Assembly: GCA_021786615.1 (NCBI GenBank)
Contig: JAJYMZ010000097.1
Coordinates: 1-32,055 of the forward strand
Length of the DNA stretch: 32,055 bases
From: Acidobacteriota bacterium
GTDB taxonomy: Bacteria; Acidobacteriota; Holophagae; Holophagales; Holophagaceae
Direction of reading: 5' to 3'
Of the stretch, positions 9,438 through 31,106 are shown piece by piece (the stretch's first letter is position 1; every line of letters starts with the position of its first letter). The position numbers were made by a program, and so were the translations under genes. Under the pieces are notes generated by a model. The model made no database searches and was not told where the DNA came from. It worked only from the letters and a program-made list of their open reading frames with translations.

Positions 9438-9538
9438 GGGCCTTCCCTGGCCCTCCAGTAAACCATGGGGGGGCAAACGGGCTCAGCCGGAAATTCGGAT
9501 GGCGGGCTCGCTGGTTCGACTCTCCCCCCAACAAACAC

Positions 9539-9566
9539 AGGAGCACAGCTCTTGGGCTGGGCTCCT
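9539..9566 (-). terminator. Hairpin downstream of tRNA-Arg (possible terminator)
   Basis: AGGAGC-a-CAGC ... GCTG-g-GCTCCT inverted repeat 8 bp past the encoded CCA end. Only a weak T-rich tail. Confidence 0.4.
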
Positions 9567-9574
9567 ATGTTCCT

Positions 9575-9651
9575 TGGTGCACCCGACTGGGGTCGAACCA
9601 GCGACCTCTGCCTTCGGAGGGCAGCGCTCTATCCAACTGAGCTACGGGTGC
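9575..9651 (-). tRNA. tRNA-Arg (anticodon CCG), CCA end encoded
   Basis: GCACCCG TA GCTCAGTTGGATAGAGC G CTGCC CTCCGAA GGCAG AGGTC GCTGG TTCGACC CCAGT CGGGTGC A CCA folds as a canonical cloverleaf. Confidence 0.95.
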
Positions 9652-9694
9652 GGCGCGTGTTTATGATGACGCTTTTATTGGGGTGGGCGCAACC
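9633..9694. repeat. 62-bp direct repeat copy I (tRNA 5' part + upstream leader)
   Basis: ccaactgagctacgggtgcggcgcgtg...ggggtgggcgcaacc; 58/62 identical to 9855-9916 at 222-bp offset. Confidence 0.93.
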
Positions 9695-9703
9695 ATCCGC
9701 GCT

Positions 9704-9916
9704 GGCAGCGCTCTCCATCTATCGGACAGTCCCCCGGACTGTCCTCCCGCTCTTCGCTTCGCTCAGTCGCGGAGATGGAGCCTCCCATCTATCGGACAGT
9801 CCCCCGGACTGTCCTCCCGCTCCTCGCTTCGCTCAGTCGCGGAGATGGAGCCTCCCAACTGAGCTACGGGTGCGGCGCGTAGTTATGATGACGCTATTGT
9901 TGGGGTGGGCGCAACC
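9704..9916 (-). pseudogene. Truncated duplicate of tRNA-Arg 5' half, interrupted in the D-loop by the 2x70-bp insertion
   Basis: 9855-9872 matches the tRNA 5' end and 9704-9714 (ggcagcgctct) matches 9620-9630 of the real tRNA. The 140-bp array replaces the 2 nt between these parts. Confidence 0.75.
9715..9854. repeat. Two tandem 70-bp palindromic units
   Basis: 9715-9784 and 9785-9854 differ at one base. Each contains the perfect hairpin GGACAGTCC-CCC-GGACTGTCC; an outer CTCCATCT/AGATGGAG inverted repeat flanks copy 1. Confidence 0.95.
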
Positions 9917-14083: not shown

Positions 14084-14503
14084 TCATAACCATCGCAGCA
14101 CGATGAGGGCGCAAGCGAAGCAAAGGAATGCGTGGTAGAGCGCGGGTATGACTTCGTAACGGACCACCAACCTGCGGAAGGCGAACAGCCAGGCATTGGT
14201 CCTTTCGATTTTCCAACGCCGCTTGTATCGGCGGAGCCTCCGTCCATCCTGAGTTTTAGGGCGCACACGGCCCCTCCGGTGGGGGCAGACCAGTTCGATG
14301 CCGCGGTCCGCCAACTGCTCGCGGAAGGGATCACTGTCGTAGGCCCTGTCTGCGATCACGCGAACGGGTTTCTGACGGGGCCTTCCTCTACGCCTCGGGA
14401 CCCGGATGTTTCTCAGGGTTTCGTCCGCGAGACGGATTTCCGCGGGCGATGCCGAGGCGATGAGAAGCCCAAGCGGTAGGCCGTTGCCGTCAACTGCCAG
14501 CAT
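14084..14503 (-). CDS. IS5-family transposase, downstream frame (OrfB), probably made by -1 frameshifting
   Basis: MLAVDGNGLPLGLLIASASPAE...VIADRAYDSDPFREQLADRGIELVCPHRR...RYKRRWKIERTNAWLFAFRRLVVRYE: DDE transposase C-terminus. Confidence 0.88.
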   Translation of the reverse strand: MLAVDGNGLPLGLLIASASPAEIRLADETLRNIRVPRRRGRPRQKPVRVIADRAYDSDPFREQLADRGIELVCPHRRGRVRPKTQDGRRLRRYKRRWKIERTNAWLFAFRRLVVRYEVIPALYHAFLCFACALIVLRWL

Positions 14504-14886
14504 GCACTTCGTTCCCTTGCCCCGTTTGGTGGGTCCGACTGCATCGCCCCCTTTTTCGCGGGAGCGAAGGTCCCATCCAGAAAGGACTCCTCCCAGTCCA
14601 ACTGCCCCCGCTCATCCAATTCCGCGAGGAAAGCCTGCCAGATCCTCAGCCAGGTTCCGTCCGCCTCCCAGCGTTGCAATCGGCGCCAACAGGTGGCTGG
14701 ACTCGGATAGGCGGCCGGGAGATCCCTCCATCGCGCTCCGGTCTTCAACACCCCAAGAATGCCTTCGACGACTGGACGGTCCTCCGCCCAAGGCCGCCCC
14801 CCTTTCTTCCCCGTCGGAAGCGTCGGCAGAAGCGCCGATATCCGCTCCCAATCAGCGTCTGTAAGCCGAATCTCTCCGCGTGCCAT
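14413..14886 (-). CDS. IS5-family transposase, upstream frame (OrfA)
   Basis: MARGEIRLTDADWERISALLPTLPTGKKGGRPWAEDRPVVEGILGVLKTGARWRDLPAAYPSPATCWRRLQRW: DUF4096-type N-terminus. Confidence 0.88.
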   Translation of the reverse strand: MARGEIRLTDADWERISALLPTLPTGKKGGRPWAEDRPVVEGILGVLKTGARWRDLPAAYPSPATCWRRLQRWEADGTWLRIWQAFLAELDERGQLDWEESFLDGTFAPAKKGAMQSDPPNGARERSACWQLTATAYRLGFSSPRHRPRKSVSRTKP

Positions 14887-14984
14887 AGGATTGCCTCCCG
14901 ACAATTCGGTTGCAATTTTCTGGCCTTAGTTATGAAACTGACTCTAATGAATGGTGGAACGATGGAACTTGACCTGGAGGCAAT

Positions 14985-16865
14985 GTGAAGGCTGAACCCT
15001 TTCAAGTCGGCGATGTTCTGAAGGATCCCAAGCGCTTTGTGGTACCTATCTATCAGCGCACTTATGCCTGGACTAGGGCACGACAGCTTGAAAAGTTCTT
15101 CGATTCAGTAGAAGCGAAGGCCGTTGATCGCATTTCTGCCGGCGGCCCTTCCTACCCTCATTACATGGGTGCGTTGCTGTTAAGCCCCAGGGGGAAGTTC
15201 ACCTTCGGTGCCATTCCCGTGTTTGATGTGGTAGACGGGCAGCAGCGCCTCATGACCTATCAGCTTTTTCTTGCGGCATTGCGGGACCTAGGCAGGGTCA
15301 AGGGCTTCGGAGTTCTAGCCGATCAGCTCACGACTTACCTCGTGAACGCAGATACTCCGATCATGAAGGATCGGAAGATTGAACGGTACAAGCTGCACTC
15401 CACTTCCTATGACCGTCCCTTGTTCCGGGATTTGATCGACCTGGATACAGAAGTGCTACGCAGTAAATACCAGCAGCACTTCTTTAAGAACGGGAACATC
15501 AGGGAAACCGCTCCGCTCCCCCTGAGGGCTTGGTGGTTCTTCTGGGAAGAGTCCTTGGCTTTCATCGACGAGGGTGCGCCAGACGACACCTATTCAAGAT
15601 TCCTCGCTCTTTCCAGCGCGGTGCTGGAAGAATTCCGGGTCATTGTCATCACCTTGGATGAAACGGACGATGCTCAGGTTATTTTTGAGACGCTGAATAG
15701 CGGCGGCGAACCCCTTGCGGCCATGGATCTCGTGAGAAATGATGTGTTCCATCGCGCCATCCGCCAGGGAGAGGATCCTGAAATGCTGATGGAATCAAGG
15801 TGGGGTCAGTTTGAAGATGCCTTCTGGAAGGAGGATGCGACCCAGGGCCGAATTCGAAAGCCAAGAATCGACTTCTTCCTTGCCCATGTACTGGCCGCTG
15901 AGAGCGGGAAAGAAGTATTGCTTTCCGAACTTTACGCACACTACAAGGCCTTCGTGACTGCCCGCTCCTTTAAATCCGTAGACGAGGAACTGGAGGTGCT
16001 TCTCCGCCATACACCAACCTATCGAAAGCTGGTTGTTCCGGCGGGAGAGGATGCATTAGCTGACCTTGCCCGCGAATTGCAGGTCTTCGATGTGACAACC
16101 GCGTATCCATTGGTATTCGTTATCGCCGACAGCGATACCGATGAAGCTACTAAGGCTAATTTGTACCGGTTAATTTCCAGCTACATCGTCCGGCGTGCAC
16201 TTTGCGGCCTTACCGCCAAGGGGTACAACCTGATGTTCCTGAGGCTCGCAGCCATCTTCCGAACCGAGGGGGTTTCCGTCTGTACCTTCAGCGAGGCACT
16301 GGCCCAGGCGGAAGGCGATTCAGTGCGCTTCCCGACGGATGAGGACTTTGAAGTGGCAATCACAACTCGCCCTCAATACACTTCGCTTCAGGCCCAGCGG
16401 CTCAACTTCATCCTCCGTCAACTGGAACTGGCATCTCGGGATCGGTTCGATGAAGGGAAATGGCTTCCCGCTTCCCTGACCATCGAGCACGTACTACCTG
16501 AAGATTGGGCTGAACACTGGCCGCTTCCAAGCGGTGCCAGTGCTCCGCTCGATTATGGAGTCCAGGGGAGTGATCCACGTTGGGGTGAAATCGATAGAAG
16601 GCAGATCCTGAAACACTCCCTGGGAAACTTGACCCTGCTGACCCTTCCGAATAACTCAAGGCTTGGAAAACTCCCCTACACGCAAGCCGATTCTCGTAGC
16701 GGCCAATCCAAGCGAGACGCGCTTCGCGCATCGCTGCTGAAGTTGAACCTGGAGATTTCTGCACACGATTCGTGGGATGAGACTCGGATCCAGGAACGTG
16801 CCAAAAGGCTTGCCTCTAGGGCGAAACTTATCTGGCCGCATCCATCAGCTCTCCTTGTAGAGTAA
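14985..16865 (+). CDS. DUF262 + DUF1524 (GmrSD-like) restriction/defence protein
   Basis: GTG start with GGAGG upstream. FVVPIYQRTYAWTRARQLEKFF; VFDVVDGQQRLMTYQLFLAAL (ParB-like DGQQR); LTIEHVLPEDWAEHW (His-Me finger/HNH of DUF1524); HSLGNLTLLTLPNNSRLG. Confidence 0.88.
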   Translation: MKAEPFQVGDVLKDPKRFVVPIYQRTYAWTRARQLEKFFDSVEAKAVDRISAGGPSYPHYMGALLLSPRGKFTFGAIPVFDVVDGQQRLMTYQLFLAALRDLGRVKGFGVLADQLTTYLVNADTPIMKDRKIERYKLHSTSYDRPLFRDLIDLDTEVLRSKYQQHFFKNGNIRETAPLPLRAWWFFWEESLAFIDEGAPDDTYSRFLALSSAVLEEFRVIVITLDETDDAQVIFETLNSGGEPLAAMDLVRNDVFHRAIRQGEDPEMLMESRWGQFEDAFWKEDATQGRIRKPRIDFFLAHVLAAESGKEVLLSELYAHYKAFVTARSFKSVDEELEVLLRHTPTYRKLVVPAGEDALADLARELQVFDVTTAYPLVFVIADSDTDEATKANLYRLISSYIVRRALCGLTAKGYNLMFLRLAAIFRTEGVSVCTFSEALAQAEGDSVRFPTDEDFEVAITTRPQYTSLQAQRLNFILRQLELASRDRFDEGKWLPASLTIEHVLPEDWAEHWPLPSGASAPLDYGVQGSDPRWGEIDRRQILKHSLGNLTLLTLPNNSRLGKLPYTQADSRSGQSKRDALRASLLKLNLEISAHDSWDETRIQERAKRLASRAKLIWPHPSALLVE

Positions 16866-29462: not shown

Positions 29463-31106
29463 CTATTCGTCATCCTCGGCGCTGAACAGGTTTGGCGTCT
29501 CGGCGGCCAGGCTCAGGTTTTCGCGCTTGGCTTTCTTGAAGGTGAGCGTGCCCATGGACATGTCGGGGAACTCCGGGCGCTTGCGGCCCTCCAATAATTC
29601 CTCGATGGTGAGCACCTGGATGCGCGGGTAGTCGCGGCCATTGCTGCCCCGGTACAGGCCCGCGCTGGCGGCTTCCTTTTTCAGCGGCGCGGTGGGTTCC
29701 GCCAGCGACACGAAAAGGCCGATGGGGGCCTTCTCGCGCTCCATGGTGGCGCGCAGATCCTTCACCATGGTGACGTCCACTTTTCCACCGCCCTTCACGT
29801 TCACGATGATGCGTTGCGTGGCGGGCTTGCCATTCACGGCGTCGGTGAAATAGATGAGGCCATCAATGCCGCCGTCGGCGCCCTTCTTCTTGCCCTGGAA
29901 GGGCTGGGCGTTCACCAGGGAGCAGGCCCACCACTGGAACTGGTACTTGTCCCGCAGCGCCAGATCCCGCGCGCCTTCGAAATCCTTGGGCGTGCCGTGG
30001 ACCTCGAAGGCGATGCCGGGAAACGCGTCTCGCAGCCGCTTTTCGATGAGGCTGATGGCCAGGTGCGTGATGTCGATGCCGATCCACTGCCGGTTCAATT
30101 TCTGCGCCGCATGCACCGCCGTGCCGCAGCCGCAGAAGGGATCCAGCACCACGTCGCCTTCGTTGGAACTGGCGAGGAGGATGCGCTCGAGTAGAGCGAC
30201 TGGTTTTTGGGTGGGATATCCGAGTGATTCTTTGCCCGAAGCAGGTGGGATGTCGTCCCAAAGCGACTGCACTGGAACACCTTTACCTGTATCCAGATAC
30301 TGCTTTCTTTGTGGAACTGTCCCCGGCTTCGATTGGACGATCATTCCATCTTCCAAAAATTTGGCCATTTTCTCTCTGGAGTAGCGCCAGTAGCGTGTGA
30401 CCCCTAACACCTCATAGCTGGGATTCCCTTTCGCGGCGCCGCCGGGGCCAATCATGCTGATTAAGCGATAGCGACGACCATCCGCCTCCGTGTACTTGAA
30501 GAATCCATCAACATATTCTGCTGAGTAATCGTGAAACCCTTGACGAAAAGTGTGATTCCCGGACTTGGAGTAAAAGAAGATTGAGTCTGTGTTCGGAGCA
30601 AAATACTTGCTGCCCTGGCCAAAGTTCCCTTTGATCGTTTGAACCCGCTTCCATACGATTTCATTCCGATAGTTCTCTACCCCGAAAACCGCATCCAACA
30701 CCAACTTCAGATAGTGGCTCGCCGTGGGGTCGCAGTGCAGATACAGGCTGCCTGTGGGTTTCAGGACGCGGTGCAGTTCGATCAGGCGGTTGGCCATCAT
30801 CACCAGGTAGGCCATGAGATCGTTCTGCCCCAGGAAGGAGCGGAAGGCGGTGATGAGGTCCGCCACGTTGGTGTGGCCGCTGCGCAGGATCTGGTCAAAC
30901 TCGCGCTCGGCCTGGTCGCTCCAGTGCCAGGTGTCCTCAAACGCTTCGATCTGCGCGTGGCTTTGCGCGCCTTCGGGGCTCTTGAACAGCAGGTTGTAGT
31001 CCCGCTTGGAATTGAAGGGCGGGTCCAGGTACACCAGGTCCACGGACTCGTCCTTGATGGACTCCCGCAGCACATCCAGGTTGTCGCCGAAGAAAAGCTG
31101 GTTCAC
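29463..31106 (-). CDS. DNA methyltransferase (N4/N6, beta-type order) with C-terminal Mrr-like restriction endonuclease domain
   Basis: LVYLDPPFNSKRDYNLLF (motif IV) precedes YPTQKPVALLERIL...VVLDPFCGCGTAVHAAQKLNRQWIGIDI (motifs X/I). C-terminal GADGGIDGLIYFTDAVNGKPATQRIIVNVKGGGKVDVTMVKDL resembles Mrr_cat (D...xxK). Confidence 0.9.
   Translation of the reverse strand: MNQLFFGDNLDVLRESIKDESVDLVYLDPPFNSKRDYNLLFKSPEGAQSHAQIEAFEDTWHWSDQAEREFDQILRSGHTNVADLITAFRSFLGQNDLMAYLVMMANRLIELHRVLKPTGSLYLHCDPTASHYLKLVLDAVFGVENYRNEIVWKRVQTIKGNFGQGSKYFAPNTDSIFFYSKSGNHTFRQGFHDYSAEYVDGFFKYTEADGRRYRLISMIGPGGAAKGNPSYEVLGVTRYWRYSREKMAKFLEDGMIVQSKPGTVPQRKQYLDTGKGVPVQSLWDDIPPASGKESLGYPTQKPVALLERILLASSNEGDVVLDPFCGCGTAVHAAQKLNRQWIGIDITHLAISLIEKRLRDAFPGIAFEVHGTPKDFEGARDLALRDKYQFQWWACSLVNAQPFQGKKKGADGGIDGLIYFTDAVNGKPATQRIIVNVKGGGKVDVTMVKDLRATMEREKAPIGLFVSLAEPTAPLKKEAASAGLYRGSNGRDYPRIQVLTIEELLEGRKRPEFPDMSMGTLTFKKAKRENLSLAAETPNLFSAEDDE

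Follow-up and report, generated by a model that had tools for sequence, protein, structure and literature searches.

Small palindromic repeats are common in bacteria, and how they spread without harm to dense genomes is largely open. The REP and BIME sequences, tagged by GTAG or CGTC, are small multi-copy palindromic repeats in which paired changes preserve the hairpins, some of them lying inside palindromes (PMC3733652, PMC2817692), and the CGTC REPs have no dedicated transposase (PMC3733652). Rickettsia palindromic elements are in-frame insertions of ~150 bp, selfish palindromes that sit in genes without killing them (reviewed in PMC10969869), and prokaryotic MITEs are short, non-coding elements whose direct repeats are target duplications made by a parent transposase (PMC10969869). 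Rearrangements of a comparable appearance are the tandem inversion duplications attributed to snap-back template switching, for example inverted amplification at short inverted repeats (PMC4689423). Outside bacteria, the double-hairpin elements of fungal (Allomyces) and sponge mitochondrial DNA are repetitive and lie in and near genes (PMC2800124).

The element considered here, designated E, is best explained as a family of selfish, hairpin-forming DNA of 60–85 bp in the Holophagaceae. It shares with REP and BIME sequences its small size, palindromy, many copies and hairpins kept by paired changes; however, E consists of two hairpins within an outer stem (60–85 bp against 20–40 for REP), lacks a constant GTAG or CGTC tag of the kind that marks the base of a single REP hairpin, is abundant in several genomes that lack the RAYT enzyme and has long stretches of duplicated gene end on either side. 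One case of E in frame inside an ORF6N-like gene (L097, L086) recalls the Rickettsia elements, whereas in-frame insertion is not the main habit of E, which normally spares the gene by duplicating its end. Like MITEs, E is short and non-coding, with terminal inverted repeats (the imperfect outer stem) and direct repeats on both sides, but these repeats of host DNA, termed T, measure 20–220 bp, follow gene boundaries and leave a gap of up to ~85 bp on the left instead of forming a short duplication of fixed length that abuts both ends; moreover, no larger parent element was found near the copies or at distant T within up to ~1.5 kb of available flank. E resembles tandem inversion duplications in its direct copies, in a short inverted piece at some junctions and in a probable origin at palindromes, yet those are sporadic rearrangements and here one element family lies at the junctions; when tested on E, the inverted flank was significant overall and clear in a minority of copies. 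The double-hairpin elements are likewise hairpin-forming repeats inserted in or near genes, but those of Allomyces are reported without flanking duplications (PMC2800124), which E has. Integron attC R/L boxes (GTTRRRY/RYYYAAC) were not seen in the E alignments by inspection, and a literature search did not find a published description of the family.

The window, meaning the whole stretch of 32,055 nt that was analysed, holds a single tRNA-Arg(CCG) gene as called by ARAGORN and Rfam (RF00005, 67.9 bits), intact and on the minus strand at 9575–9651. Joined to it is T_left (9633–9694, minus strand), which comprises tRNA nt 1–19 (9633–9651) and the leader, and which is repeated directly at 9855–9916 with 58/62 positions equal (94%). 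This second copy of tRNA nt 1–19 and leader, T_right (minus strand), abuts the element and is continuous with the native upstream flank and its amidase gene. Between the two lie a filler, atccgcgct (9695–9703), at the tandem-duplication junction, which sequence comparison finds also in the sister species G002; ggcagcgctct (9704–9714, minus strand), a second copy of the tRNA bases that immediately follow the insertion point on its 3' side; and two element units on the plus strand, head to tail, which fill 9715–9854. Unit 1 (9715–9784) has the outer stem CCATCT/AGATGG, a hairpin 1 of GGACAGTCC-CCC-GGACTGTCC and a hairpin 2 that contains GCGAAGC on the minus strand, and unit 2 (9785–9854) is identical to it at 69/70 positions (99%). 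The insert amounts to the E units plus ~20 bp, and the extra tRNA copy is broken between nt 19 and ~nt 22, resuming beyond the units for 11 bases. An earlier note, made from the letters alone, had described the 62-bp repeats, the two palindromic units in the D-loop of a truncated tRNA copy and the resumed tRNA sequence, with coordinates that all hold, and had seen that the insert is unlike an integrative element at a tRNA 3' end, which is borne out in that the site is the D-loop, the 5' end is duplicated, and neither an integrase gene nor cargo is present in the insert. Its reading of the structure was right, but it could not see that an entire family of elements has this arrangement as its norm, in protein genes as well as tRNAs, and that the tRNA-Arg D-loop is a recurrent target of the family.

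Comparison of the locus across relatives, which the note had proposed as a route to the empty-site state, found that state in the sister species G003 and G004, in which the amidase gene, leader and tRNA-Arg are directly consecutive; T_right and its flank are therefore native, and the gap together with E is the insert. G002 carries an ortholog with one decayed unit and a drifted ggcagcgctct piece. At this locus E would have entered the D-loop of tRNA-Arg(CCG) before the split of G002 from the genome of the window (G000), and would then have doubled in the latter. The intact tRNA keeps its own leader while a second leader and tRNA 5' part lie upstream, so that a longer precursor or a short chimeric RNA, the latter suggested by the earlier note, may be made; scans of the window locus gave no sigma-70 consensus promoter in either leader copy and no terminator signature. 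Nothing points to a benefit of E for the host, and in plasmid records the sole match was the tRNA itself. Past the tRNA 3' end and the tRNA terminator lies an inverted copy of the tRNA T-arm (9508–9520, plus strand; 13/13 complementary to 9592–9604), which makes a long palindrome (9505–9604) at the tRNA 3' end. Similar inverted T-arms are seen in G002, G003, G014, G055 and G077, and in some of these an additional element separates the arms.

A covariance model for E, built from 19 copies, matches 63 of the 77 Holophagaceae genomes and 9 of the 11 genera, with up to 44 copies per genome; many of these genomes are drafts, and several loci at one site are not independent. The window units score 90 and 74 bits against a family model that other loci also went into, which is far beyond chance. 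As relatives of the window unit occur elsewhere in its own genome and in other genera, the genome-wide search that the earlier note had suggested was productive, and the concern it raised about local noise without other copies falls away. A pattern scan of named species genomes matched 17 records, of which those with a name below the phylum are Geothrix or Holophagaceae and the rest Acidobacteria MAGs; the named matches are mostly Geothrix. Variants of the family were also observed: in the genome of the window an E subtype (L004–L007) lies inside a longer intergenic repeat that is edged by gcttcaggcttcagg, and no gene end is duplicated beside it, while in G055 three E copies that have lost hairpin 1 are arrayed in tandem together with copies, 136 bp long, of the start of a gene (L217–L219, G055:C1:1675339-1675792).

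Every copy is a three-helix unit of outer stem and two hairpins, and the outer stem forms imperfect inverted repeats at the ends of E that are upheld by paired changes. Across 104 distinct sequences 94% of the cells pair, 297 being changed on both sides, and just 8 G-U pairs are present in ~1814 paired cells, which is no higher than other mismatches would give. RNA structures usually tolerate G-U pairs; since the changes here are Watson-Crick with almost none of these, the complementarity is apparently kept in DNA. The hairpin triloops of the minus strand are GNA in 65/81 cases (GAA 30, GCA 17, GGA 14, GTA 4) with the middle base free, against 0 in the opposite sense. A GNA loop closed by two G-C pairs (GCGNAGC) is an extraordinarily stable DNA mini-hairpin (PMC4686876). 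The presence of this DNA-specific motif on the minus strand points to E folding as single-stranded DNA and not as RNA. The GNA-bearing strand is also the G-rich one at 52/77 loci, not all of which are independent. Leading strands are G-rich in most bacteria, and if this holds here, the skew is suggestive of the GNA strand being the lagging-strand template. Other features of the unit are less constant, as the end motif varies (GACTAC, GACCAC, GACAAC or none in alignments A1/A2); on the minus strand GGAG lies ahead of hairpin 1. Downstream of the WGRFGELF gene in G042, one E is nested in the hairpin-2 loop of another (L157), which suggests that hairpin loops may be entry points.

Direct repeats of host DNA bracket E (within 300 bp) in 81/101 copies with enough flank, compared with 3/306 control positions at the same loci. 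As the 101-copy sample favoured high-scoring copies, the test was repeated on all matches of one single-contig genome of the genus g4 (Geothrix), where 20/22 had flanking repeats, which abut E in 13 of these cases. Most copies follow the order P - T_left - gap - E - T_right - Q, in which the gene with its intact end is on the T_left side, a remnant of that end on the other, and Q is the native flank, so that E lies within a gene close to one of its ends; T is ~20–220 bp long, T_right normally starts 0–2 bp after E, and T_left ends up to ~85 bp before it. Judged by their translated ends, the T sequences are gene ends, namely the 3' ends of genes for ribosomal protein S18, FtsK, thioredoxin and enoyl-CoA hydratase-like proteins, the 5' ends of further genes and 5' parts of tRNAs. 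With gene frames picked by a simple GC3 rule, T_left homology stops within 4 nt of a stop or start codon in 29/55 coding cases and within 12 nt in 39/55, so that the gene on the T_left side is complete in most cases. The two T copies differ more the farther they lie from E (29, 38, 58, 83 and 94 mismatches by fifths), and codon differences lean synonymous (105 vs 56), which suggests that another allele can supply some of T_left and that recombination must act on the unit. A plain horizontal origin of T_left as a foreign allele is weakened, as most of T is the species' own. Few copies of E lie in plain intergenic DNA, and some have no duplication, such as those at L097 966–1042 and L086 1501–1577, where E in the ORF6N-like gene of two species is apparently open in frame.

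The tRNA-Arg D-loop is a recurrent, favoured target of E, and the window is one case of it. The junction of E with CCARCTGAGCTACGG occurs in 11/77 genomes, with 0 in a reversed-pattern control, and the same D-loop position is occupied in three tRNA-Arg genes: CCG (G000, G055, G068, G077, G083, G084 and G076, the last assigned by flanking genes), CCT (G055, G066, G074, G081) and TCG (G004). Wherever the intact gene is on the contig, the tRNA-Arg cases have their own leader and tRNA nt 1 to ~32 duplicated, and all of those other than the window carry a stretch of their own tRNA that matches the 9704–9714 piece; in G055, G068 and G076 the locus has expanded to T-E-T-E arrays. A second such site is the gene encoding WGRFGELF..., where 7 of the 30 Geothrix (g4) alleles carry E at the same nucleotide, one more holds a decayed E and the others are empty. 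The alleles with E are scattered on the gene tree, requiring 6 changes (shuffled mean 6.4), at least 4 of which are forced by well-supported branches; the T copies are mostly species-own, and some of the species with E have T_left distal ends in common. As E copies at the same site in different genomes have a mean identity of 83%, compared with 67% for different sites in one genome, the E lineages are tied to their sites, and are either old with many exact losses or have spread between species at the site.

The explanation tentatively preferred, to which we give a little less than an even chance, is that E enters by a process that copies the gene end again, through template switching in replication with later recombination between the T copies. 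The family and its fold, the duplication at most copies, the empty sites, the repeated use of one nucleotide and the tandem T-E arrays are shown, and the insertion step is inferred. In this proposal E would enter the lagging template, while that is single-stranded, at a palindrome or hairpin-like point; the nascent strand, which by then has copied the gene end, would switch template at E, re-enter the original template behind it and so copy that end twice. The T copies would later recombine, which would expand the unit (T-E-T-E-T), remove E to leave an exact empty site or homogenise the unit, and may bring it to the same site in other species. The left flank of E is complementary to the right flank in 14/66 copies against 3.2 expected in a position-limited test (permutation p < 1/5000), while a looser test is marginal (p = 0.05) and the complementarity is clear in a minority of copies; other left flanks repeat the sequence that precedes the insertion point, most clearly at tRNAs. 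Both patterns count as marks of template switching. The Y1 (RAYT) domain PF01797 is absent from the E-rich genomes G055, G085, G007, G042, G016 and G014, with fragments in G000 and intact copies in G071, G069 and the E-less G091, and reverse-transcriptase domains are absent from the E-rich G000, G055, G085 and G007; a RAYT or reverse-transcriptase partner was rejected on account of these absences. Switching at the fork with T recombination is favoured on account of the switch marks, the T gradient and the lack of these enzymes in several E-rich genomes, and the insertion step would amount to a replication error. Simple template switching does not predict that T_left ends at a codon boundary also in cases where the two T copies do not differ, and an unrecognised enzyme may take part in insertion. 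It is possible, if somewhat doubtful, that E represents a new class of mobile DNA, a palindrome that folds as a single strand and needs no transposase, and for which the fork copies a chosen gene end twice, the D-loop of tRNA-Arg genes being among the targets, making insertion harmless, exactly reversible and spreadable to the same site in other species.

Conventional transposition would require that E is a non-autonomous transposon and that T is a very long target-site duplication, left by an unrecognised transposase that cuts the strands far apart. T lies on both sides and T_right exactly abuts E in most copies, some copies are abutted by T on both sides (L110, 126 bp at 95%), and the imperfect inverted repeats at the ends of E are also as expected. 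The explanation is nonetheless unlikely, as most copies have a foreign gap between T_left and E, T stops at codon boundaries, the element-rich G055, G085 and G007 have neither Y1 transposase nor reverse transcriptase domains, and E copies are related by site and not by genome, unlike the result of ordinary transposition within a genome.

Integrative elements restore the genes that they enter, and by analogy T, gap and E could be a cassette, perhaps a minicircle, that brings along a copy of the gene end and, by homologous recombination, homes to that same end in relatives without E. Occupation of the same nucleotide across scattered species, site-bound lineages, tandem arrays, the synonymous lean of T with divergence growing away from E, and the T_left distal ends shared by some species would all follow. 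This is improbable, however, because both T copies mostly match the allele of the host species, no larger version with an integrase turned up at the examined sites, it is left unexplained how E first gets into a new gene, and vertical inheritance with repeated exact loss could yield the same scatter.

There is a small chance that partial tandem duplications of gene ends came first and E inserted later, without duplication, into the dispensable copy, where selection tolerated it. The E at tRNA-Arg is indeed flanked on both sides by a continuous second tRNA copy (nt 1–19, E, nt 22–32), and one E is nested in the hairpin loop of another. Such duplications are nearly missing from the control positions, few copies lie in plain intergenic DNA where a duplication would be unneeded, the native site is unduplicated in both G003 and G004, and E-less tandem duplications were not found at the relatives' sites checked, all of which speaks against this order of events.

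That E is a structured RNA, such as a terminator or sRNA, or a retrotransposed RNA is very improbable: the predicted folds are stable, and target-primed reverse transcription is called to mind by duplications of this length with an exact 3' junction, but the pairing is apparently not kept at the RNA level, the GNA triloops are confined to one strand, terminator signatures and, in the E-rich genomes named above, reverse transcriptase are missing, and an RNA element was rejected on the near absence of G-U pairs and of any Rfam match to the unit. Misassembly, which the earlier note had considered and which the 333-contig draft state of the genome might invite, has a negligible probability, as many independent assemblies, a single-contig genome among them, show this anatomy and G002 carries the decayed ortholog.

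Nearly every copy of E holds its own record in the form of an intact gene, the element, a remnant and empty sites in sister species, and insertion, exact loss and spread across species can thereby be tested directly in Geothrix, which is cultivable. Should the duplication belong to the insertion step, E would represent a separate route by which selfish DNA gets into genes and leaves them unbroken, and would be a natural source of partial duplications of gene ends and promoters. Elsewhere in the window, an IS4/5-family transposase split over two frames (14084–14904; DUF4096, DDE_Tnp_1) adjoins a gene for a type IV restriction endonuclease of the GmrSD type, in which the N and C domains are both present (14985–16865), and a fusion of an N6/N4 DNA methylase with an Mrr-like restriction domain is encoded at 29463–31106.
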